Origin: Longimicrobium sp. | GTDB lineage: Bacteria; Gemmatimonadota; Gemmatimonadetes; Longimicrobiales; Longimicrobiaceae | Length of the DNA stretch: 64,000 nucleotides | Assembly: GCA_036389795.1 (NCBI GenBank) | Contig: DASVWD010000021.1 | Span: forward strand, 1 to 64,000 | Direction of reading: 5' to 3' | In this document: in pieces, positions 34,332 through 52,601 of the stretch | How the letters are laid out: every line of letters begins with the position of its first letter | Numbering within the stretch: the stretch's first letter is position 1 | Translations under genes and position numbers: made by a program | The notes under the pieces: model-generated | The model's database searches: none | The model's input: the letters and a program-made list of their open reading frames with translations, nothing else | Told to the model about the DNA's origin: nothing

Positions 34332-36686
34332 ATGCTCGCGCTCGCCCCTTCCGGCCCGCCCCCCTTCTTCGCCGAGGCCGCCGCCCTGATGGTGGCCGCC
34401 GCGGTGATCGCCTACGCCGCCGCGCGCGCCGGGGTGGTCCCCATCGTCGGCTTCCTCCTGGCGGGGGTGGTGATCGGGCCGCACGGGCTGGGCATCGTGC
34501 GCGACCGCGAGATGGTCGACGCCGCCGCCGAGATCGGCGTGGTGCTGCTCCTCTTCACCATCGGCATCGAGTTCAGCTTCGAGAAGCTGGCCCGCATCCG
34601 CCGGCTGATCCTGGGCGGCGGCACCCTGCAGGTGGGGCTCGCCACCGCCGCCACGGCCGGGCTCCTCGCCGCGCTGGGAGTGGACTGGCGCGCCGCCCTC
34701 TTCACCGGCTTCCTGGTGGCGCTCTCCTCCACGGCAATCGTCCTCAAGCTGCTGGGCGACCGCGGCGAGGCCGCCGCCCCGCACGGCCAGGTGGGGCTGG
34801 GGCTCCTCATCTTCCAGGACCTGGCCATCATCCCCATGGTGCTGCTGGTGCCCGTCTTGGCCGGCCGGGGCGGCTCCCCGGGCGACGTGGGGCTCGCGCT
34901 CCTCAAGGCGGCGGCCATCATCGCCCTGGTGCTCCTGGTGGCGCGCCGGCTGATGCCGCCGCTGCTGGAGGTGGTGGCGCGCACCTGCGCCCCCGAGCTC
35001 TTCCTGCTCACCGTGATGGCCGTCTGCTTCGGCACCGCCTGGCTCACCTCCCTGGCGGGGGTCAGCCTGTCGCTGGGCGCCTTCCTGGCCGGGCTGGTGG
35101 TGAGCGAGAGCCGCTTCAGCGAGCACGCCCTGGGCGAGATCCTCCCGCTGCAGATCCTCTTCAGCGCCACCTTCTTCGTCTCGGTGGGGATGCTGCTGGA
35201 CCTGGGCTTCCTGGCGCGCAACCTCCCCCTGGTGGGCGCCGCCGCGGCGGGGGTGCTGGCGGTCAAGCTGCTCACCACCTCCGCCAGCGTGCGCCTCCTG
35301 CGGTACCCGCTCCCCGTGGCCGCCGCCTCGGGGCTGGTGCTGGCGCAGATCGGCGAGTTCTCGTTCGTGCTGGCGAACGCGGGGCGCGAGGCGGGGCTCA
35401 CCCCCGCGGGGCTGGGCGAGACCGGGCTGCAGGCGTTCATCGCCACCAGCGTGCTGCTGATGGTGGCCACCCCGTACCTGGCCGCGCTGGGCTCGCGCCT
35501 GGCCGGGCGGCTCCAGGCGCACGCCGCCGCCGCCGAGGGCCGGCGCATGGAGGAGGCCGAGGCCGCCGGCGCCGGCCACCTCCCCCGGCTGGAGAACCAC
35601 GTGGTGGTGGCGGGCTACGGGCAGGCCGCGCGGCGGCTGGCGCGGGTGCTGCGCGCGTCGGGCGTCCCCTTCGCCATCACCACCCTCTCCCCCGACGGCG
35701 CGCGCGAGGCCGAGGCCGAGGGCTACCCCGTGCTGCGCGGCGACTCGGCCCGGCAGCGCACCCTGGAGCTGGTGGGGATCGAGCGCGCCAAGGTGATGGT
35801 GATCGCCGACGACGACCCGGCCATGGCGTACCGGATCGCCGCGGTGGGGCGGATGACGAACCCCACCATGCGCATCGTGGTGCGCACCCGCTACCTGGCC
35901 GAGGTGGAGCCGCTCAGCGAGGCCGGCGCCGACACCGTGGTGGCCGAGGAGCTGGAGGCTGTGGTGCGGCTCTTCGGCGACGTGCTGCGCGAGTACCGGG
36001 TGGACCCCGGCGAGATCGACGCGCACGAGGCCGCCGCGCGCCGGGGCGGCTATGCGGTGCTGCGCACGGGTGAGGCCCCCGGGCTGCCGCCGTGCGCGCT
36101 GGACGGCGACTGCCTGGCCACGCGCACCGTCGCCGTGCGCGCGGGCTCCCCCGCGGCCGGGCGGCGCGTGGGCGAGCTGGCGCTCGGGCGCTGGGGGCTG
36201 GTGCTCACCGGCGTCCGCGAGGACGGGGCGTGGGAGGAGGCGCCGCCGGACGACCGGGTGCTGCGCCCCGGGATGGAGCTGGCGCTGGCCGGCACCGCCG
36301 ACGCCTTCGCCCGGAGCGCCCCCGTGTTCCGCCCCGCCGGCGGCACGCTGAGCCCGGCGCCGCCCCCGCCGCGGGCCGACGGGAGGACGCGCCCCGACCC
36401 CGAGCAGCTGGTCACCTTCCAGCCCGCCGGAGGGGCCGCCTGCGCCCACCTCGAGCAGGTGCATCCCGTGCACCCCAGCGCCCCCGGCTGCGAGGAGTGC
36501 CTGCGCAGCGGCGACGACTGGGTGCAGCTGCGCCTGTGCATGACCTGCGGCCACGTGGGCTGCTGCGACTCGTCGCCGAACCGCCACGCCACCGCGCACT
36601 TCCACGCCACCGGCCACCCCGTGATGCGCTCCGCCGAGCCGGGCGAGACGTGGGGCTGGTGCTACGTCGACGAGCTGGAGCTGTAG
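34332..36686 (+). CDS. Kef-type cation/proton antiporter with RCK domain and C-terminal UBP zinc finger
   Basis: The 784-residue protein joins three parts. A CPA2 Na+(K+)/H+ exchanger domain spans residues about 10-395 (VGFLLAGVVIGPHGLGIV, LGLLIFQDLAIIPMVLL). An RCK/TrkA-N domain begins near 420 (HVVVAGYGQAARRLARVL) followed by a TrkA-C-like part near 610-670. A UBP-type zinc finger fills residues about 699-784 (GCEECLRSGDDWVQLRLCMTCGHVGCCD, then HATAHFHATGHPVMRS and WCYVDE). All expected Cys/His ligands of the finger are present. Bacterial UBP fingers usually stand alone or are fused to antiporters; the role here is unknown. Confidence 0.93.
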   Translation: MLALAPSGPPPFFAEAAALMVAAAVIAYAAARAGVVPIVGFLLAGVVIGPHGLGIVRDREMVDAAAEIGVVLLLFTIGIEFSFEKLARIRRLILGGGTLQVGLATAATAGLLAALGVDWRAALFTGFLVALSSTAIVLKLLGDRGEAAAPHGQVGLGLLIFQDLAIIPMVLLVPVLAGRGGSPGDVGLALLKAAAIIALVLLVARRLMPPLLEVVARTCAPELFLLTVMAVCFGTAWLTSLAGVSLSLGAFLAGLVVSESRFSEHALGEILPLQILFSATFFVSVGMLLDLGFLARNLPLVGAAAAGVLAVKLLTTSASVRLLRYPLPVAAASGLVLAQIGEFSFVLANAGREAGLTPAGLGETGLQAFIATSVLLMVATPYLAALGSRLAGRLQAHAAAAEGRRMEEAEAAGAGHLPRLENHVVVAGYGQAARRLARVLRASGVPFAITTLSPDGAREAEAEGYPVLRGDSARQRTLELVGIERAKVMVIADDDPAMAYRIAAVGRMTNPTMRIVVRTRYLAEVEPLSEAGADTVVAEELEAVVRLFGDVLREYRVDPGEIDAHEAAARRGGYAVLRTGEAPGLPPCALDGDCLATRTVAVRAGSPAAGRRVGELALGRWGLVLTGVREDGAWEEAPPDDRVLRPGMELALAGTADAFARSAPVFRPAGGTLSPAPPPPRADGRTRPDPEQLVTFQPAGGAACAHLEQVHPVHPSAPGCEECLRSGDDWVQLRLCMTCGHVGCCDSSPNRHATAHFHATGHPVMRSAEPGETWGWCYVDELEL

Positions 36687-37041
36687 GAGGGGAAGTGCGT
36701 GAGCGCATCGGCTGGCTTCCGCGCCGCCGCGGGCAGCCCTCTCCCTGGCGCTGCGCGCCTGTCCCTCCCCCAAACCCCTGGGGGAGGGACCTCCTCGCTT
36801 CGCTCGTAACGTGTGGACGCAGGATATCGCCTGCTGGAGACCGGCGAGGCCTGCCGCGCACGCGGAACCCGACGACGCACCGGGGGAGCCCGCGGAGGCG
36901 GGCTTTTCGCCGTTGTTGCCGCGGATTCATCCGCCACCCCACGCACCGGCCCTGTCATGTCCACCCTCTCCCAAACCTGCCCCAAACCTGGGAGAGGGTT
37001 GCCGCTCCAAGGCGGCGGGTGAGGGCTGCCCGCGGCCGCGC
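36687..37041. repeat. Repeat-filled spacer between the two antiporter units
   Basis: No gene is seen. It holds a GTGCGTGAGCGC octamer remnant (36696-36707), a reversed GGCGCTGCGCGCCTGTCCCTCC/GGGGGAGGGACCTCCTCGCT element (about 36728-36812) and a GCCCGCGGAGGCGGGC stem with the trailing CGCCGTTGTTGCCGCGG segment (about 36890-36935). A CCCTCTCCCA/TGGGAGAGGG hairpin follows. Confidence 0.7.
36963..36999. terminator. Hairpin between convergent antiporter genes
   Basis: An 11-bp stem ACCCTCTCCCA / TGGGAGAGGGT lies between the plus-strand antiporter and the minus-strand khtU. It could end transcripts from both sides; no long T-tract is present. Confidence 0.4.
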
Positions 37042-38307
37042 CTAACTCTGCGGTCGCGCTGGAGGCTCGCCGCCCGAACCGGGCGGGCCCGGCGCTCCGG
37101 ACGGGGCCTCCTCGTCCGACGTCGGCGGCCCCAGCACGTAGTCCGGCAGCGGAGGGCGCGGCCCCTTGCGGGGGAACACCCGCTGCGCGATGCGCGGGGC
37201 GTACTGCATGGTCGCCGTCCCCGCCAGCGAGAGCGCCAGCACCATCAGCCCGATCGCCGCGTTCACCTCCGCCAGCCCGGCCGTGGCCGCCACGCCCGCC
37301 AGCAGGATGGAGAACTCGCCGCGCGGCACCAGCGTGAGCCCCAGCGCCAGCGCGCCGCGCTTCGACAGCCCGTCCGCGAGCCCCGCGCGGTAGCCGCCCG
37401 CCACCTTCGCCGCGATTCCCAGCACCGCCAGCCCCAGCGCCTGCGGCCACACCCCCGCGAAGCGCGCCGGGTCCAGCGACAGCCCGAACGCCAGGAAGAA
37501 CACCGCCGCGAACACCCCCTGCAGCGGCGCGAAGAGACGCTCCACCCGCTCGCGGTGGCGCGTCTCGGCCAGCACCACCCCCGCCAGGAACGCCCCGATC
37601 GCCTCCGACAGCCCCGCCGCCAGCGCCGCCGCCGACAGCAGCAGCACCAGCCCGCCCACCGCAAGCAGCAGCAGGTCGTCGCTCTCCAGGTCCAGCGCCC
37701 AGTCCAGCACCCGCTCCGCCCTGAGCGCGATCACCACGAACACGGCGAAGAAGGCCGCCGCGATGCCGATCCCCCGCAGCACCGATCCCGCCGACGGCTC
37801 GCCCGCCAGCACCGCGCCCGAGAGCAGCGCCAGCAGCAGCGCCACGAACAGGTCCTCGAAGACGAGCACCCCGAGCGCCGTCTCCGTCTCGGGGTTCGCC
37901 GTGCGCTCCAGGTCGATCACCCCCTTGGCGATGATGGCGCTGGACGAGACGTAGAAGGCGCCCGCCAGGATCAGCGCCCCCTCGATCCCCCACCCGAACG
38001 CCAGCCCCGCCGCGAGGCCGAGCGGAAAGCAGAACGCCAGGTCCACCAGCCCGCCGCGCACGATGCGCCGCCGGTTCTCCAGCAGCGCCCGCAGCGAGAA
38101 CTCCAGCCCCATGAAGAAGAGCAGGAGCGCCACGCCCAGCGTGGCCAGCACGTCCACCAGCTCCTGGTCCAGCCCCACCGGCCGGAGCGCCAGCCCCAGC
38201 AGGATGAAGGCGGGGACCACCGACTGGCCCAGCCGCGCGAACAGGATGCCCGCCAGCGCCAGGGCCGCCAGCACCGCGCCGGCGCCCAGCAGGAATTCGC
38301 CGTGCAT
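37042..38307 (-). CDS. khtU: CPA2 K+/H+ antiporter subunit (KhtU-like)
   Basis: The 421-residue integral membrane protein has about 12 hydrophobic segments and CPA2 motifs (LGVALLLFFMGLEFSLRALLE, AGAFYVSSSAIIAKGVI, LGVLVFEDLFVALLLALL, LVPRGEFSILLAGV). The C-terminal tail is Pro/Gly-rich. It starts 9 bp after the KhtT-like gene, the same arrangement as the Bacillus KhtTU K+/H+ antiporter. The symbol is given by this arrangement and family. Confidence 0.85.
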   Translation of the reverse strand: MHGEFLLGAGAVLAALALAGILFARLGQSVVPAFILLGLALRPVGLDQELVDVLATLGVALLLFFMGLEFSLRALLENRRRIVRGGLVDLAFCFPLGLAAGLAFGWGIEGALILAGAFYVSSSAIIAKGVIDLERTANPETETALGVLVFEDLFVALLLALLSGAVLAGEPSAGSVLRGIGIAAAFFAVFVVIALRAERVLDWALDLESDDLLLLAVGGLVLLLSAAALAAGLSEAIGAFLAGVVLAETRHRERVERLFAPLQGVFAAVFFLAFGLSLDPARFAGVWPQALGLAVLGIAAKVAGGYRAGLADGLSKRGALALGLTLVPRGEFSILLAGVAATAGLAEVNAAIGLMVLALSLAGTATMQYAPRIAQRVFPRKGPRPPLPDYVLGPPTSDEEAPSGAPGPPGSGGEPPARPQS

Positions 38308-38316
38308 GGCCGCCCG

Positions 38317-38799
38317 TCAGCCGCCGCGCAGCAGCGCGCCCAGGCGCCCCACCTGCTCGCGGTCGCCCACCACCACCAGCGTGTCGCCGGCCGCGATCCG
38401 CTCGTCGGGCTGCGGGTTGGGCACCGCCCGCCCGCCGCGCAGCACGGCGATGATGCTGGCCCCCGTGCGCTTGCGCACCGCCGCCTCGCCGATGGTCTGC
38501 CCCTCCAGCGGCGAGCCGGGGCGCACCTTCATCCACTCCACGGCCAGCTGGTCGAGGATCAGGTCCATCGACTCCGCCGGCGTGGGCTGGAAGTAGGCGC
38601 CGCCCAGGATCGCCCCCAGCTTGCGCGCTTCGGCGTCGTCCATGCGCACCGCGGCGGCGGGGAAGTCCTCCCCCCGCTCGAAGAGGTAGACCTCGCGGTG
38701 CCCCGTGTTGTGGATGATGACGGTCAGCCGGTCGCCGCCGCGGGTGGTGCAGGCGAACTTCTTCCCCACCCCCGGCAGGTCGTGCTCCTTGACCTCCAT
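38317..38799 (-). CDS. khtT: Regulatory subunit with TrkA-C domain (KhtT-like)
   Basis: The 160-residue soluble protein has an N-terminal domain (MEVKEHDLPGVGKKFACTTRGGDRLTVIIHNTGHREVYLF) and a C-terminal RCK_C/TrkA-C domain (TIGEAAVRKRTGASIIAVLRGG, then NPQPDERIAAGDTLVVVGDREQV). KhtT proteins gate KhtU. In Bacillus c-di-AMP binds the RCK_C domain. The ATG at 38799 has GGGGGCG upstream and begins at the family start. Confidence 0.87.
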   Translation of the reverse strand: MEVKEHDLPGVGKKFACTTRGGDRLTVIIHNTGHREVYLFERGEDFPAAAVRMDDAEARKLGAILGGAYFQPTPAESMDLILDQLAVEWMKVRPGSPLEGQTIGEAAVRKRTGASIIAVLRGGRAVPNPQPDERIAAGDTLVVVGDREQVGRLGALLRGG

Positions 38800-38973
38800 G
38801 TCGCCCCCGCTTCGCTGTCCTGTGGCCGCGGCCGCGCGCCGCACCCCTCGCATCTACGGCGAAGCGGCCTGCGTGGCAAGCCCCGGCCGCCTCACGCCGG
38901 CGCATGCAACCTCCCTCCTCCCCCGGCGATCCAAGTCCCGTCCACGATCGGGAGAAGCCACCGGAGGAGCGAA

Positions 38974-39558
38974 ATGAGAGACCGGACCCGCCCCCGCCGC
39001 CTCGCGCCCGCCGCGCTCGCGCTCGTCCACGCCGCGTGCGATCCCCCGCCGCCCGTGCCCAGATCGGACGCCCGCGCGGAGGTCGAGGCGCAGTACGAGC
39101 GCCTGGCCGAGGCGATCCGGCGGAACGACCTGGAGGCGATCCTGGCCCTGCAGGCGCCGGACTTCACCTCGCGCAACCCGAACGGGCAGGCGTTCGACTA
39201 TGCGGCGATGGAGGACTACACGCGGCGGATGACCTCTGCCATCGACTCCGTGATCCACATCCGCAACCGCATCCGCGAGTTCACCCTGCGCGGCGACACC
39301 GCGGTGGCCGACGTGTGCCAGGAGCTCTCGCGCATCCAGCGCATCGGCGACAGCCCGCGCCGCGTAGACACCAGCGCGCTGCAGACCGAGACCTGGGTGC
39401 GCCGCCCCGAAGGCTGGCGCCGCCGCCACGTCGAGAACGTCCGCGGCCTGCGCTGGTTCGTCGAAGGCGTCCGCGTCGAGCCCGGCCGGCCCTACGCCCC
39501 CGGCGCGCCGGAATACCGCCCCGACCCCGATCCCCCGACCGGCTGCGGCCTGCGGTGA
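38974..39558 (+). CDS. Exported NTF2-like (SnoaL/DUF4440-type) protein
   Basis: The 194-residue product has a basic, hydrophobic N-terminus (RRLAPAALALVHAAC) that looks like a signal peptide; the lipobox is imperfect. Residues about 35-160 fit a cone-shaped NTF2-like fold: YERLAEAIRRNDLEAILALQAPDFTSRNPNG, a TRRM helix and a GDTAVADVCQELSR strand. Ligand and role are unknown. GGAGGAGC precedes the ATG at 38974. It stands alone. Confidence 0.75.
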   Translation: MRDRTRPRRLAPAALALVHAACDPPPPVPRSDARAEVEAQYERLAEAIRRNDLEAILALQAPDFTSRNPNGQAFDYAAMEDYTRRMTSAIDSVIHIRNRIREFTLRGDTAVADVCQELSRIQRIGDSPRRVDTSALQTETWVRRPEGWRRRHVENVRGLRWFVEGVRVEPGRPYAPGAPEYRPDPDPPTGCGLR

Positions 39559-39582
39559 GGGTATTAGGCAAAAGTGGAGAAG

Positions 39583-39653
39583 AAAAACCCCGGGTGTGCA
39601 GGGATTCTGCAGACCCGGGGGAGGTAAAGCCGCCGCCGTTGCGGGCAACGGAT
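39583..39653 (-). ncRNA. Candidate small RNA between the NTF2-like gene and the nuclease
   Basis: On the minus strand a promoter (-35 TTGACA, 39687-39682; 16-bp spacer; -10 TACATT, 39665-39660) is followed by a short segment with a CCGTTGC/GCAACGG hairpin (39637-39652), an unpaired TTTACCTCCCCC stretch (39618-39629), and a strong hairpin (39588-39620) ending in TTTTTCTTCT. No open frame of note lies within it. This is the layout of a roughly 70-nt small RNA. Transcription is inferred, not shown. Confidence 0.4.
39588..39620. terminator. Hairpin with T-tract on the minus strand
   Basis: CCCCGGGTGTGCAG pairs with CTGCAGACCCGGGG with one mismatch and a 5-base loop. On the minus strand TTTTTCTTCT follows directly, the mark of a rho-independent terminator. 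It may also stop plus-strand transcription from the NTF2-like gene. Confidence 0.65.
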
Positions 39654-39659
39654 GCACGG

Positions 39660-39687
39660 AATGTACAGTTTGCTTGCGACGTGTCAA
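39660..39687 (-). promoter_or_regulatory. sigma70-like promoter of the candidate small RNA
   Basis: TTGACA and TACATT are separated by 16 bp on the minus strand. The -35 is a perfect consensus match, the best in the window together with that of the MarR gene. Confidence 0.5.
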
Positions 39688-39815
39688 GACTCTTTCAAGT
39701 TCCGCAGCCCAGTTTTCACCCGTTCTGAAATGCGAAACAGAAGCCACCCCGGGCGTAGGAGGAGCAATGGGAGTAGATTGGAGCAGAAGAGACACCTTCC
39801 TCGCGATGGCAGACC

Positions 39816-40571
39816 ATGAGTGATTCATCACAGCGTTTGTTGAGCCCTGAGGAGTACGAATGGGCCCTCTTCGAGAAACTGCTCTACGACTTTCCACCTC
39901 CCGCTTTTCGGGTTGAACACAATGTCTCGCTTCCTGGCAATCAAAGTGGAACATCGCGTCAGGTGGATGTTGTCGTTTATAAGGCAGGGGACGCACATCC
40001 CTTCCTCATAGCCGATGCCAAGCTTCATAAAAGGAAAGTTGATCTTACCGTCACTGGTAGCTTCTTATCGATGCTCTTGGATACCGAAGTCGGGGCCGGC
40101 CTGCTTGTCGCGCCAGAAGGGTTTAGCAAGGGTGCCGAGAATCAGCTCAAGCAGCACAATGTGGCCGTTATGCAATTGTCTCTGGACAAAGCCCTCACGC
40201 TATGCTGGCGCTCAATTGCACGGGGGCTGCTTCCCTGGGATTGGGCTTTCCATCCAGATATGGCACCCGTTCTTCGACTTATTGATGAGAAGGCGAGTCC
40301 TGATGAGCTAGTGGAGGCAACCGCGGTTCTGCCGTTTGAGGAATGGGAGGCGGTAATCTCATTCGGGATGCACAACTATAGGCAGGAAGCCCGTTCCTTC
40401 CTTTGCGCAATTGCCTTAGAACACTGGGATGACGCTTGGCGATTCAATGCGGTCCGTCTCCTCAATGAGTTTGGGAGTCTAGACAATGACTTCGCTCGAG
40501 CGTTGATCCAGAGAGAAACCGATCCAGAAACTCTGGCTTTGCTCGAAGTGTGCTGTGAACGTCCGGTATAA
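39816..40571 (+). CDS. Orphan protein with PD-(D/E)xK restriction-nuclease-like domain; lower GC
   Basis: The 251-residue protein has, at residues 48-70, RQVDVVVYKAG...FLIADAKLHKRKV. This is the arrangement of Mrr/HJR-type PD-(D/E)xK nucleases: Asp51, then Asp67-x-Lys69, with Glu16 or Glu20 upstream as possible extra ligands. The C-terminal 130 residues are helical and unrecognised. G+C content is about 50-55% against about 70% around it, and codon use differs (many A/T third positions), a sign of recent transfer. No methylase or partner gene is adjacent. The start at 39816 has no clear ribosome-binding site. Confidence 0.75.
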   Translation: MSDSSQRLLSPEEYEWALFEKLLYDFPPPAFRVEHNVSLPGNQSGTSRQVDVVVYKAGDAHPFLIADAKLHKRKVDLTVTGSFLSMLLDTEVGAGLLVAPEGFSKGAENQLKQHNVAVMQLSLDKALTLCWRSIARGLLPWDWAFHPDMAPVLRLIDEKASPDELVEATAVLPFEEWEAVISFGMHNYRQEARSFLCAIALEHWDDAWRFNAVRLLNEFGSLDNDFARALIQRETDPETLALLEVCCERPV

Positions 40572-40590
40572 CATAACCACGGCCCGTAGA

Positions 40591-40629
40591 AACCGCCCCC
40601 GGTGCTCGCGATGAGCCCCGGGGGCGGTT
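40591..40629. terminator. Bidirectional terminator between nuclease and RND operon
   Basis: A 12-bp stem, AACCGCCCCCGG / CCGGGGGCGGTT, lies between the plus-strand nuclease gene and the minus-strand RND operon. On the minus strand it is followed by TTTCT. Confidence 0.7.
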
Positions 40630-40672
40630 CCTCTCCTGCCGATCCTGGCGACGGCGTCGCCCGCGTCCGCGC

Positions 40673-43600
40673 TCAGTCCGCCGCGATCGTCTCCGGCTCG
40701 CGCTTCGGGGCGGGGGTGGGGCGCGCCGGGACGTGCACCGCGGCGGGGCGGCGGCCGCCGAGCTTCGCGCGCACCCACGCGATCCCGTCGTCCAGCAGCG
40801 TGTAGACCACCGGCACCACGAACAGCGTGAGCAGCGTGGAGGTGATCAGCCCGCCGATCACCGCGTGGGCCATCGGCGCCCGCTGCTCGCTCCCCTCGCC
40901 CAGCGCCAGCGCCAGCGGGATCATGCCGAAGATCATCGCCATGGTGGTCATGATGATCGGCCGCACGCGCACCCGCGCCGAGGTCAGCACCGCCTCGGTG
41001 CGCGGCACCCCCCGCTCGCGCTCGTGGTTCACGAAGTCCACCAGCAGGATGCCGTTCTTGGTCACCAGCCCCATCAGCATGACGATGCCGATCATCGTCA
41101 TCACGTTCAGGTTCCCCTTCGTGAGCCACAGCGCCAGCGCCACGCCCAGGAACGAGAGCGGCAGCGCCAGCATGATGGCCAGCGGCTGGAAGAACGAGCC
41201 GAAGAGCGAGGCCAGGATCAGGTAGATGAACACCACCGCCAGCAGGAGCGCCGCCCCCACGTAGCCCTTGGTCTCCTCCAGGTTCTGCACGTCGCCGGTG
41301 AACACCGCGCGGTACCCCGGCGGCAGCCCCACCCGGTCGATCGCCTCGCGCGCGTCGTTGGCCACGTCGCCCACGCTGTGCCCGGGGAGCACCCCGGCCG
41401 AGACCGAGACCTGCCGCTCCAGGCTGCGCCGCTCGATCGACACCGGGCTGGTGCCGGCGCGCACGTCGGCCACCTCGCTGAGCGGGATCATCGCCGGCTG
41501 GCGCGAATCGGGGTCCACGTTGCTGCTGGCCACCGGGATGTTCCCCACGTCGCCCGCCGAGGTGCGCAAACTGTCGGGGTACACCACGATCACGTCGTGC
41601 GAGTACCCCTGCGGGTCCTCCCAGCGCGTGGCGCGCTGCCCGGTGAAGAGCGGCTGCAGCGTCTGGCCGATGCTCTGGATCCCCAGCCCCGCCGCCCAGG
41701 CGCGCTGCCGGTCCACCACCACGTCCAGCTGCGGGACCTCCTCCTCCTGCTGGCTGTTCGGCTCGGCGATCCCCTCCACGTTCTCCAGCGCGTCCAGCAC
41801 CTGGTTGGCCGCCAGCTTGAGGGTGTTGAACTCCGGCCCCTGCACGTTCACCTGGATCGGCTGCCCGCGCCCGCCGAAGATCGTCGGGGTCCCCGTGATG
41901 TTGGCCCGCACCCCGGGGACGCGCCGCAGCTCGCCGCGCAGCGCGTCCTGGATGTCGGCCTGCGAGCGCTCACGCTCGTTCTTCTCCTTCAGCTTCACGA
42001 AGATCTGCCCGTTGCTGGGCGTGCCCCGGAAGCCGCCGCCGATCGACATGTAGGTGTAGGCCACCTCCGGCTGTGAGCGCAGGAAGCGGTCGAGCTCGCG
42101 CCCCTTCTCGATAGTGTACTCCAGCCGCGACCCCGGCGGCACCCGGTAGCCCACGTTGAACTCGCCGCCGTCGAAGTCGGGCATCCAGGTGAAGCCCAGC
42201 CGCGGCAGGAGGAACGCCGCCAGCCCGATGGAGAGCACCGCGCCCACCAGCACCTTCACCCGGTGCCCCAGCGCCCAGCTCAGCCACCGCGGGTAGCGCT
42301 CGGCCACCGCCTCGAAGCGGCCGTTGAACCAGTGGGCGAAGCGCACCACGGGGTTCCGCGTCCGCCGCGCGGGCGTCACCCCCTCGCGCCCGTGCACCCG
42401 CGCCTCCACCTCGGGGTCGGGCCAGATGCTGGAGAGCATCGGGTCCAGGGTGAAGGAGACGAAGAGCGACACCAGCACCGCGAACGCCACCGTCACGCCG
42501 AACTGGAAGAAGATCTTCCCGATCATCCCGCCCATGAAGGCCACCGGGATGAACACCGCCATCACCGCCAGCGTGGTGGAGACCACGGCCAGGCCGATCT
42601 CGCTGGTCCCCTCGCGCGCGGCGGTGTGGTGGTCCTTCCCCATCTCCAGGTGGCGCACGATGTTCTCGCGCACCACGATGGCGTCGTCGATCAGGAGGCC
42701 GATGGAGAGCGCCAGCGCCAGCAGCGTCATGGTGTTCACCGTGAAGTCGAACAGCCACATCACGAAGAACGCCGAGATGATGCTGATGGGCAGCGCCAGG
42801 CCGGTGATGACCGTGGAGCGCCAGGAGTTCAGGAACAGGTAGATGATGAGGATGGTGAGCACCGCGCCCAGCGCCAGCTCGTGCTGCACCGAGTCCAGCG
42901 AGGCGCGGATGCGCCGCGAGTCGTCGCGGATCACCGACAGCTTCACGTCCTCCGGGAGCGTCCGCTCCAGCTCGGCCGAGGCCAGGCGCACCCGGTCGGC
43001 CACCTCCACCGTGTTGGTCCCCGCCACCTTGAGGATGTCGATGGCCACCGCGGGGACGTCGTTCATGAAGGCGGCGCTGCGCCGCTCGGCCGAGCCGTCC
43101 ACCACGCTCCCCACGTCGCGCAGGCGCACGGGGACGCCGTCGCGCACGGCCACCACCACGTCGTTGAAGGCCAGCGGGTCGTCGATGCGGCCCGAGACGC
43201 GCACCAGGCGCTCCTGCTCGCCGCGGCGCACGCGGCCGGCGGGGACGTCCTGGTTCTCGCGCTGCAGCGCCTGCATCACCTGCTGCGGGCTGATCCCGTA
43301 GGCGCGCATGGCGGCCGGGTCGAGCTGCGCCTTGATCTCGCGCCGCGCCCCGCCCACCACGTTCACGCCGCCCACGCCGGGGATGGCCTCGAAGCGGGTC
43401 GACACCACCTCGTCGGCGATGTTGGTGAGCTCACGGAGCGGCCGCTCGGAGCTCTGCAGCGCGATCGACATGATCGGCCGCTCGTTGGGGTCGAAGCGCA
43501 GGATCACCGGGTCCTCGATCCCCGGCGGGAGCTGGCGGCGGAGGCGGGCCACCTTGGCCTGCACGTCCTGCTGCGCCTCGGCCACGTTCACGCCCAGCTC

Positions 43601-43885
43601 CAGCTGCACGCGCACCAGGGAGCTCCCCTCGAGCGACGTCGAGGCGACCTCCTTGATCCCCTGCACGGTGTTGAGCGCCTCCTCGATCGGGCGGCTCACC
43701 TCGCGCTCCACCACCTCGGGGGAAGCGCCGGGGTAGGCGGTCTGCGCCACCACGATCGGGTAGGTGACGTCCGGGTACTCGTCGATGGCGAGACGCCGGT
43801 AGCTGACGACGCCGAGGACGACGAGCGCCACCATCATCATGGTGGCGAACACCGGCCGGCGGATCGATACGTCGGAGAGGAACAT
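40673..43885 (-). CDS. RND multidrug/solute efflux pump (AcrB/HAE1 family)
   Basis: The 1070-residue inner-membrane transporter uses proton flow to expel substrates through the adaptor and TolC. Visible features: N-terminal MFLSDVSIRRPVFATMMMVALVVLG, the periplasmic YPDVTYPIVVAQTAYPGASPEVVEREVSRPIEEA, the TM4 region ALALSIGLLIDDAIVVRENIVRH with its acidic pair (relay residues), TFTLDPMLSS, and the second-half GIVMLMGLVTKNGILLVDF. Length is normal. It is the last gene of the TolC-adaptor-pump operon, 18 bp after the adaptor. Confidence 0.96.
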   Translation of the reverse strand: MFLSDVSIRRPVFATMMMVALVVLGVVSYRRLAIDEYPDVTYPIVVAQTAYPGASPEVVEREVSRPIEEALNTVQGIKEVASTSLEGSSLVRVQLELGVNVAEAQQDVQAKVARLRRQLPPGIEDPVILRFDPNERPIMSIALQSSERPLRELTNIADEVVSTRFEAIPGVGGVNVVGGARREIKAQLDPAAMRAYGISPQQVMQALQRENQDVPAGRVRRGEQERLVRVSGRIDDPLAFNDVVVAVRDGVPVRLRDVGSVVDGSAERRSAAFMNDVPAVAIDILKVAGTNTVEVADRVRLASAELERTLPEDVKLSVIRDDSRRIRASLDSVQHELALGAVLTILIIYLFLNSWRSTVITGLALPISIISAFFVMWLFDFTVNTMTLLALALSIGLLIDDAIVVRENIVRHLEMGKDHHTAAREGTSEIGLAVVSTTLAVMAVFIPVAFMGGMIGKIFFQFGVTVAFAVLVSLFVSFTLDPMLSSIWPDPEVEARVHGREGVTPARRTRNPVVRFAHWFNGRFEAVAERYPRWLSWALGHRVKVLVGAVLSIGLAAFLLPRLGFTWMPDFDGGEFNVGYRVPPGSRLEYTIEKGRELDRFLRSQPEVAYTYMSIGGGFRGTPSNGQIFVKLKEKNERERSQADIQDALRGELRRVPGVRANITGTPTIFGGRGQPIQVNVQGPEFNTLKLAANQVLDALENVEGIAEPNSQQEEEVPQLDVVVDRQRAWAAGLGIQSIGQTLQPLFTGQRATRWEDPQGYSHDVIVVYPDSLRTSAGDVGNIPVASSNVDPDSRQPAMIPLSEVADVRAGTSPVSIERRSLERQVSVSAGVLPGHSVGDVANDAREAIDRVGLPPGYRAVFTGDVQNLEETKGYVGAALLLAVVFIYLILASLFGSFFQPLAIMLALPLSFLGVALALWLTKGNLNVMTMIGIVMLMGLVTKNGILLVDFVNHERERGVPRTEAVLTSARVRVRPIIMTTMAMIFGMIPLALALGEGSEQRAPMAHAVIGGLITSTLLTLFVVPVVYTLLDDGIAWVRAKLGGRRPAAVHVPARPTPAPKREPETIAAD

Positions 43886-43903
43886 CGCTTTCGATCCCGT
43901 TCG

Positions 43904-45169
43904 TTATCTGCCCTGCCCGCCCGGGCCGCCCTGGCCCGGCGCGCGCCCTCCGCCCTCGCCGCCCCCGCGCTGCCCGCCGCCGGGGGCGCCCGGTCCACCC
44001 GGTCCGCCCCTGCCGCCGCGGCCGCGCCCCGGCGCCGCCATGCGCACCTGCATCCCCCGCCCCAGCAGCCCCACGTTGCCCACCACGATGCGGTCGCCCT
44101 CGGCCAGGCCGTCCACGATCTGCACCAGCCCGGCGCCCTCGTCGCGCAGCCCCGGCGTCACCTCGGCGATCTCGACCTTCTCGTTCTCGATCCGGTAGAC
44201 GAACGGCCTGGCCCCCTCGCGCCCCTCGCGCAGGGCGGCCACGGGCACCACCAGCGCGTCGTCCACCATCCTCGCCACGATCCGTCCCGTGGCGAAGGTC
44301 CCCGCGCGGAGGCTGCCGTCGGGGTTGGGCACCTGCACGTAGACGCGCACCGCGCGCGAGGCCGGGTCCACCGAGGGGTTCACGCGCGCCACCCGGCCGG
44401 TGAACTCGCGCCCGGCGGCGGAGAAGCGCACCGCCTGCCCGGGCTGCACCAGGAGCGCCTGCCGCTCGGGGACCGAGGCCGCCAGCTCCAGCACGTTGCC
44501 CTGCACCAGGGTGAACATGGCGGCGCCGCGGTTCACGTGCTCGCCGGGGTTCACCAGCCGCCGCTCGATCACGCCCGAGGCGGGCGCCAGCACGCGGGTG
44601 TCGGCCACGGTCATGGAGCTGGAGCGCAGCCGGCTCTGCGCGGCGGCCAGCCGGGCGCGGGCGGCGGCCGCGGCCTGCTCGGCCTGGCGCACGTCGCGCT
44701 CGGGGACGGCGCCCTCGCGGTGCAGCTCGCGCGTCTGTTCCAGGTTCCACTCGGCGGTGGAGACCTCGCTGCGCGCGGCGGCCACGTCGGCCTGCGCGCT
44801 CACCCGCTGCCCGGCCTCCTCGGCCGACTCGAAGCGCGCCAGGAGCTGCCCGGCGCGCACCGGCTCGCCCTCGCGGACGTAGACGCCCACCAGGTCGCCC
44901 TCCAGGCGGGCGCGCAGCTCGGCGCGCTCCAGGGGGGCCAGCGTCCCGGTGACGGGGATGGCGTCTTCCATCGGCGCGCGCCGCGGGGAGGCCACGTCGC
45001 CGGGCGCCAGCGTCACGCTGCGGCCGCCGCCGGGGCCCCCGGGCCCGCCGGGTCCGCCCTTGGGCGCGCCCCCGGCGGCGTCGGCGTCGCGCGAGCAGGC
45101 GGCCGCCGCGGCGACCATCGCCGCGAGCGAGGCCGCCCGGAGGATATGCGAAGAAGTGCTGCGCTGCAC
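43904..45169 (-). CDS. RND efflux periplasmic adaptor lipoprotein (MFP/HlyD family)
   Basis: This links the RND pump to TolC. The 421-residue protein has a lipoprotein signal (AAMVAAAAAC), a lipoyl half-motif (LEGDLVGVYVREGEPVRAGQLLARF), an alpha-hairpin (residues about 115-165) and a second lipoyl part (VLAPASGVIERRLVNPGEHV), then the beta-barrel and C-terminal domain (GDRIVVGNVGLLGRGMQVR). The tail is an unusual stretch of Gly/Arg/Pro repeats (GGRGGPGGPGAPGGG). The start is GTG at 45169. It follows tolC by 11 bp. Confidence 0.94.
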   Translation of the reverse strand: MQRSTSSHILRAASLAAMVAAAAACSRDADAAGGAPKGGPGGPGGPGGGRSVTLAPGDVASPRRAPMEDAIPVTGTLAPLERAELRARLEGDLVGVYVREGEPVRAGQLLARFESAEEAGQRVSAQADVAAARSEVSTAEWNLEQTRELHREGAVPERDVRQAEQAAAAARARLAAAQSRLRSSSMTVADTRVLAPASGVIERRLVNPGEHVNRGAAMFTLVQGNVLELAASVPERQALLVQPGQAVRFSAAGREFTGRVARVNPSVDPASRAVRVYVQVPNPDGSLRAGTFATGRIVARMVDDALVVPVAALREGREGARPFVYRIENEKVEIAEVTPGLRDEGAGLVQIVDGLAEGDRIVVGNVGLLGRGMQVRMAAPGRGRGGRGGPGGPGAPGGGQRGGGEGGGRAPGQGGPGGQGR

Positions 45170-51420: not shown

Positions 51421-51720
51421 CTGTCCGTCGTCCGCGGGCGCCGGTGGGGAGGGCGCGCGCGGACCGAACCCCGTCTGCAAGGAGCATACACAAGTTTATG
51501 TCACAGCGGAGCGGTAGAGCTGAACTGTACATAACCTGTGATCAACTGGCCCATCTGGAAGCTCGAGACCCCCGGGTGATTCCGTAATGCACTCGGAGCA
51601 AATCACTTGCACCTCACGAGCTGAAACGGGTGGATGGAGCAGATGCGGGTGGAGACGCAGACGCCTGCTCCGGGGATTTTTTGGAAAAACCGTCCGGCGG
51701 GCCCCGCTGGACTGCGAAAA

Positions 51721-51754
51721 CGACGGGAGGGGCGCCCGCACGCCCCTCCCGTCG
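51721..51754 (-). terminator. Terminator of lipoprotein gene 2
   Basis: A perfect 14-bp stem CGACGGGAGGGGCG / CGCCCCTCCCGTCG with a 6-base loop is followed on the minus strand by TTTTCGC. It lies 30 bp past the stop codon. Confidence 0.8.
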
Positions 51755-51784
51755 CGGTCTTTTCGGCTCTTCGGGGCGCCCGGC

Positions 51785-52360: not shown

Positions 52361-52488
52361 TGGGTCCTCCTTCGGCGGGGCGCGGCCCCGCGGTGGGTGG
52401 TGCATGGCGGCGAAGCGCGGAGTGCCGCTTCGCCGCGAGCCCGGTGCGCCCTGCGGGAGGCGCCCCGGCAGCGAAAAGCCGCCGGCGC

Positions 52489-52510: not shown

Positions 52511-52601
52511 GCTGGCGGCCCGGCTGGCGTGGCGACCCGGGGGTCGCGGTAGCCCCGCGGCTCTGCGTCCCCGCCTTTCGGCGGGTTTGCTCTGAGCAGC
52601 A
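52511..52601 (-). promoter_or_regulatory. Cyclic-di-GMP-I (GEMM) riboswitch aptamer
   Basis: Read on the minus strand the segment shows the GEMM-I elements in order: GAGCAAACC, a GCC-GAAA-GGC stem with GNRA tetraloop, GGGACGCAGAGCC (consensus GGGACGCAAAGCC), GGGGCTACCGCGA, and a closing GCCAGCCGGGCCGCC. It lies about 150 bases upstream of lipoprotein 2. GEMM-I riboswitches bind cyclic di-GMP (some bind cAMP-GMP). The match is by eye; a covariance-model score was not run. Confidence 0.72.

Follow-up and report, generated by a model that had tools for sequence, protein, structure and literature searches.

In a contig of Longimicrobium sp. (DASVWD010000021.1), of which a window of 64,000 nucleotides was analysed, a compact element that lies in genuinely intergenic DNA, with a plus-strand gene on each side, is best read, from its anatomy, as a free-standing short non-coding transcription unit on the minus strand. 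Our preferred explanation, to which we give a probability of roughly 0.55, is that the element is a gene in its own right and encodes a small non-coding RNA of some 70-74 nt. According to this reading, the housekeeping sigma factor would start the RNA near 39653 on the minus strand and the intrinsic terminator at 39620-39583 would end it. The transcript would form two stable stem-loops with an unpaired, C/U-rich linker, CUUUACCUC, between them. It would most likely act in trans, its linker pairing with GGAGGU-type ribosome-binding sites with the aid of partial opening of the terminator stem, and this pairing would block translation initiation. We infer transcription, the start site and the accessibility of the RNA in vivo from the DNA sequence; Shine-Dalgarno (SD) pairing and its targets are a guess, and we hold the SD-pairing mechanism to be rather unlikely. 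The small-RNA interpretation put forward in an earlier note on this stretch is partly supported.

Promoter and terminator

The putative sigma-70-type promoter (39687-39660, minus strand) consists of TTGACA (39687-39682), a 16-nt spacer and TACATT (39665-39660), in agreement with the consensus -35 and the -10 that the earlier note had placed on this strand. The -35 hexamer is the full consensus. In a scan of positions 36000-45000 this promoter was the only sigma-70-like site, where shuffled sequences gave 0.2 on average. Genome-wide, the pattern TTGACA-N15-18-TANNNT occurs 120 times (58 + 62) versus 4 times (2 + 2) for the reversed control pattern; judged by this control, the 30-fold enrichment means that roughly 97% of the sites are not due to chance and are most simply promoters. 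Moreover, such a promoter followed by GGTTTT at the spacing of the candidate was found once in the 7.5 Mb genome and never in the control. We regard the candidate promoter as credible, and its motif, TTGACA-N16-TACATT, would provide the element with the promoter of its own that is expected of a free-standing small RNA gene. The predicted transcription start, an A at 39653 on the minus strand, is placed from spacing only, 7 nt past the -10 hexamer.

The element also carries its own intrinsic terminator on the same strand. The terminator hairpin (39620-39588, minus strand; CCCCGGGUcUGCAG aaucc CUGCAcACCCGGGG, -24.7 kcal/mol) is directly followed by the U tract TTTTT (39587-39583), which continues as CTTCTCC, and this canonical arrangement lies within 75 nt of the promoter. 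The 64-kb window contains 6 hairpin-plus-TTTT terminators with -20 kcal/mol or better, versus 2.25 per Markov shuffle; taken alone, the terminator is not overwhelming and could be of chance origin. What counts is its position straight behind the sole promoter nearby; of the two signals, the promoter carries more weight. By our own estimate, derived from the approximately 120 such promoters and the terminator density of the window, a promoter and a terminator would be paired by chance at this distance less than once per genome and about 0.01 times per window.

Some other regulatory elements were noticed along the way. The minus strand carries a c-di-GMP-I riboswitch aptamer at 52511-52601 (53.6 bits), with a strong terminator hairpin after it at 52477, and a very strong hairpin at 51720-51760, which has T tracts on both strands, is a bidirectional terminator. 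Elsewhere in the same genome, a second candidate for a short transcription unit combines a consensus promoter, TTGACA-N17-TATACT, with a strong hairpin and a T-rich tract within about 65 nt (L042 1502-1605; G000:C4:18990 on).

Predicted RNA fold and linker

The predicted RNA, bounded by the promoter and the terminator, spans 39653-39580 on the minus strand, and the sequence downstream of TACATT reads ATCCGTTGCCCGCAACGGCGGCGGCTTTACCTCCCCCGGGTCTGCAGAATCCCTGCACACCCGGGGTTTTTCTT. Its minimum free energy is -38.7 kcal/mol, whereas dinucleotide shuffles average -24.1 kcal/mol (sd 2.9; z -5.0) and none of 200 folds as well. The two hairpins and the T tract claimed in the earlier note are present. Hairpin 1 (39651-39630, minus strand) has an 8-bp stem, CCGUUGCC/GGCGGCGG, with an alternative 6-bp form, CCGUUG/CAACGG. 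It is followed by the single-stranded linker of 9 nt (39629-39621, minus strand; CUUUACCUC), where each base is predicted to be unpaired with a probability of at least 0.97.

The claim that the longer segment CCUCCCCC is unpaired holds for this linker but not for its last four C's (C39620-C39617), which base-pair probabilities place inside the terminator stem at 0.99 or higher. This bears on the proposal that the segment pairs with SD sequences. The exposed linker retains ACCUC, which belongs to the anti-SD core and keeps the proposal plausible, but the terminator stem takes up half of the segment that was claimed, and the reach of the exposed core is shorter than proposed. Likewise, the UCCC motif typical of C-rich small RNAs is half buried in the terminator stem and its unpaired part is CCUC only. 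The candidate accordingly lacks the exposed UCCC or CUCCC of C-rich SD-blocking small RNAs, while the complementarity of its linker to GGAGGU is present.

Bacteria often use short non-coding RNAs to block translation, and known RNAs offer some parallels. LhrC of Listeria is predicted to block the SD of lapB through a single-stranded region lying between two stem-loops (PMC4132741), and ribosome-binding sites are the proposed pairing partners of the C-rich segment in small RNAs of Bacillus and other Firmicutes (RoxS/RsaE, FsrA; PMC8216469). The candidate resembles LhrC in its two stem-loops and the C-rich single strand between them that is able to pair with an SD. However, LhrC is encoded by several gene copies, carries three CUCCC sites and has a target that was tested (PMC4132741), whereas the candidate has one copy, one partly buried site and putative targets, and shows no Rfam match to LhrC. 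With RoxS/RsaE and FsrA it has the C-rich segment in common, but no sequence relation was detected and its UCCC is incompletely exposed. Because of this missing sequence relation and the incomplete exposure, the candidate would at best work like LhrC and the C-rich small RNAs and is not a member of either.

The Rfam search of the element returned only a sub-threshold match to anti-hemB (Burkholderia RNA 7, RF02837). The two are alike in length, hairpin, U-rich linker and CCCCGG terminator with U tract, and they align end to end, but the match scores 16.8 bits (E 0.12) where the gathering score is 49.5, which points to a generic terminator likeness and not to homology. ARAGORN found no tRNA or tmRNA in the window.

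Coding frames

The statement that the region has no reading frame needs qualification. Mechanical open frames do cross the element on both strands (38854-39996 on the minus strand, 38904-39728 and 39596-39823 on the plus strand), but those on the minus strand do not share the codon-position GC bias of the neighbouring chromosomal genes: third-position GC is 0.94-0.99 in those genes, and the frames here have about 0.5-0.67 at any position. In this sense the overlapping minus-strand frames do not look like coding frames. On the other hand, a frame of foreign origin could escape this test, since the third-position GC of the adjacent Mrr-like gene is itself 0.54.

Conservation and genomic context

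The earlier note had proposed conservation of the stems and the promoter in relatives as a check. It lends the idea no support, as no homologue turned up anywhere we searched. A DNA search of the genome itself, 60 relatives and 394 genomes of the same class returned the element itself and one 29-nt match, which lies in G044 within a coding sequence (glnE-like by eye), is confined to the hairpin-1 portion of the element and was rejected. In a search of 61 genomes with a covariance model made from the element's sequence alone, only the element itself was a confident match; the best non-self hit had an E value of 0.018, and the sequences printed for it and the weaker runners-up share neither promoter nor linker. 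The linker-plus-terminator pattern CTTTACCTCCCC-N-GGGGTTTT gave 12 scattered matches in unrelated phyla among 84,980 species genomes, which we do not take as homologues since our own chance estimate is about 12. The plasmid search gave no homologue of the element, and in viral contigs one exact 18-mer was judged to be a chance match because its context resembles phage coding sequence. These absences are weak evidence against function, because the genomes compared include no close sister species: RND protein identity with the congeners is only about 71-78%.

The plus-strand gene on the low-coordinate side of the element is a DUF4440/SnoaL-like gene with its stop at 39558. On the other side lies a plus-strand Mrr-like gene (39816-40571), whose product has a weak Mrr_cat match (E 0.002, below the Pfam cut-off) and the D...DAK pattern of PD-(D/E)xK nucleases, spotted by eye. 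It is perhaps a defence nuclease. From one side of the junction to the other the GC content drops from about 73% to about 53%, and the Mrr-like gene finds only partial matches of 30-37% identity, in three congeners; for these two reasons it is probably acquired DNA. No relative of its protein was confirmed in the genome contig collection, and no convincing flanking repeats that would mark a mobile element were found around the candidate. An 18-codon open frame on the plus strand (39767-39823; MGVDWSRRDTFLAMADHE) has a strong SD, AGGAGGAG, and overlaps the start of the Mrr-like gene, which looks like translational coupling or a leader peptide. Further out, the minus-strand RND transporter gene (43885-40673) precedes the element and has its own terminator-like hairpin at about 40592-40630, and a pair of TrkA_C and Na/H-antiporter genes starts on the minus strand at 38853, beyond a plus-strand gene. 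From this hairpin and the intervening plus-strand gene, the candidate unit would be neither the tail of the RND gene nor a leader of the antiporter genes.

The most serious alternative is that the promoter is real but drives an RNA without a role in trans. It would yield a short transcript, abortive or without function, at a recently rearranged junction beside an acquired nuclease gene; or else the element would be the displaced remnants of a promoter and an old terminator. The GC step and the poor matches of the Mrr-like gene fit such a history, as does the fact that the congeners have different sequence beside their closest RND and CPA2-antiporter homologues, where the arrangement is absent. 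However, the promoter, fold and terminator are strong, compact and well spaced and bear no signs of decay, and we consider this explanation possible but clearly less probable than a small RNA gene.

Restriction-type nucleases are often under tight control, and the element might instead be a device in cis for the divergent Mrr-like gene (start 39816), whose expression would be set by small-RNA transcription directed away from it or by antisense overlap with its leader. The two are arranged head to head, with about 130-160 nt between the start of the Mrr-like gene and the minus-strand promoter, which would allow this, but upstream of 39660 the scan recognised no plus-strand promoter from which a leader would extend over the small RNA, and the element has no DNA match in the congeners that carry Mrr-like relatives; we think this improbable. 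Just as improbable is that the main feature is the GC-rich hairpin at 39588-39620, as a 3'-end hairpin of the DUF4440/SnoaL-like gene, and that the promoter on the minus strand is a coincidence. The hairpin does lie 30 nt past the stop codon of that gene and, being palindromic, folds on both strands, but its plus-strand exit is GGAGGTAAAG and the T tract is found only on the minus-strand exit.

Putative targets

For the favoured small RNA gene, computed duplexes of the RNA with ordinary SD-like sequences reach -11 to -17 kcal/mol, using some bases of the terminator stem; real pairing would therefore have to open this stem or be weaker than computed. A genome search for GGAGGTAA upstream of ATG gave 3 sites versus 3 in the control, and no target set stands out. 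One of the three sites starts a 109-aa peptide with a Cys-rich C-terminus behind GGAGGTAATCCCATG (L097 position 1501; G000:C218:28115-28129), which looks like a precursor of a RiPP (pinensin-like lanthipeptide), though nothing ties this peptide to the candidate RNA.

Implications

Overall, the element is a credible candidate for an ordinary, lineage-specific small RNA gene, for which the anti-SD idea may hold but was overstated. A more far-reaching notion, to which we give little credence, is that it represents an undescribed small RNA family from a little-studied, GC-rich lineage, a family with a linker that reproduces part of the anti-SD tail of 16S rRNA, perhaps acquired with the Mrr-like gene and controlling that gene or host mRNAs. 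For this lineage, a full-text literature search with one assumed phylum name brought up no study devoted to small RNAs. If transcribed, the element would give the lineage a small RNA candidate that is tractable by experiment. Moreover, promoters with the full TTGACA/TANNNT consensus, though rare, are strongly enriched in this genome of 73% GC, which should offer a simple route to more such candidates.
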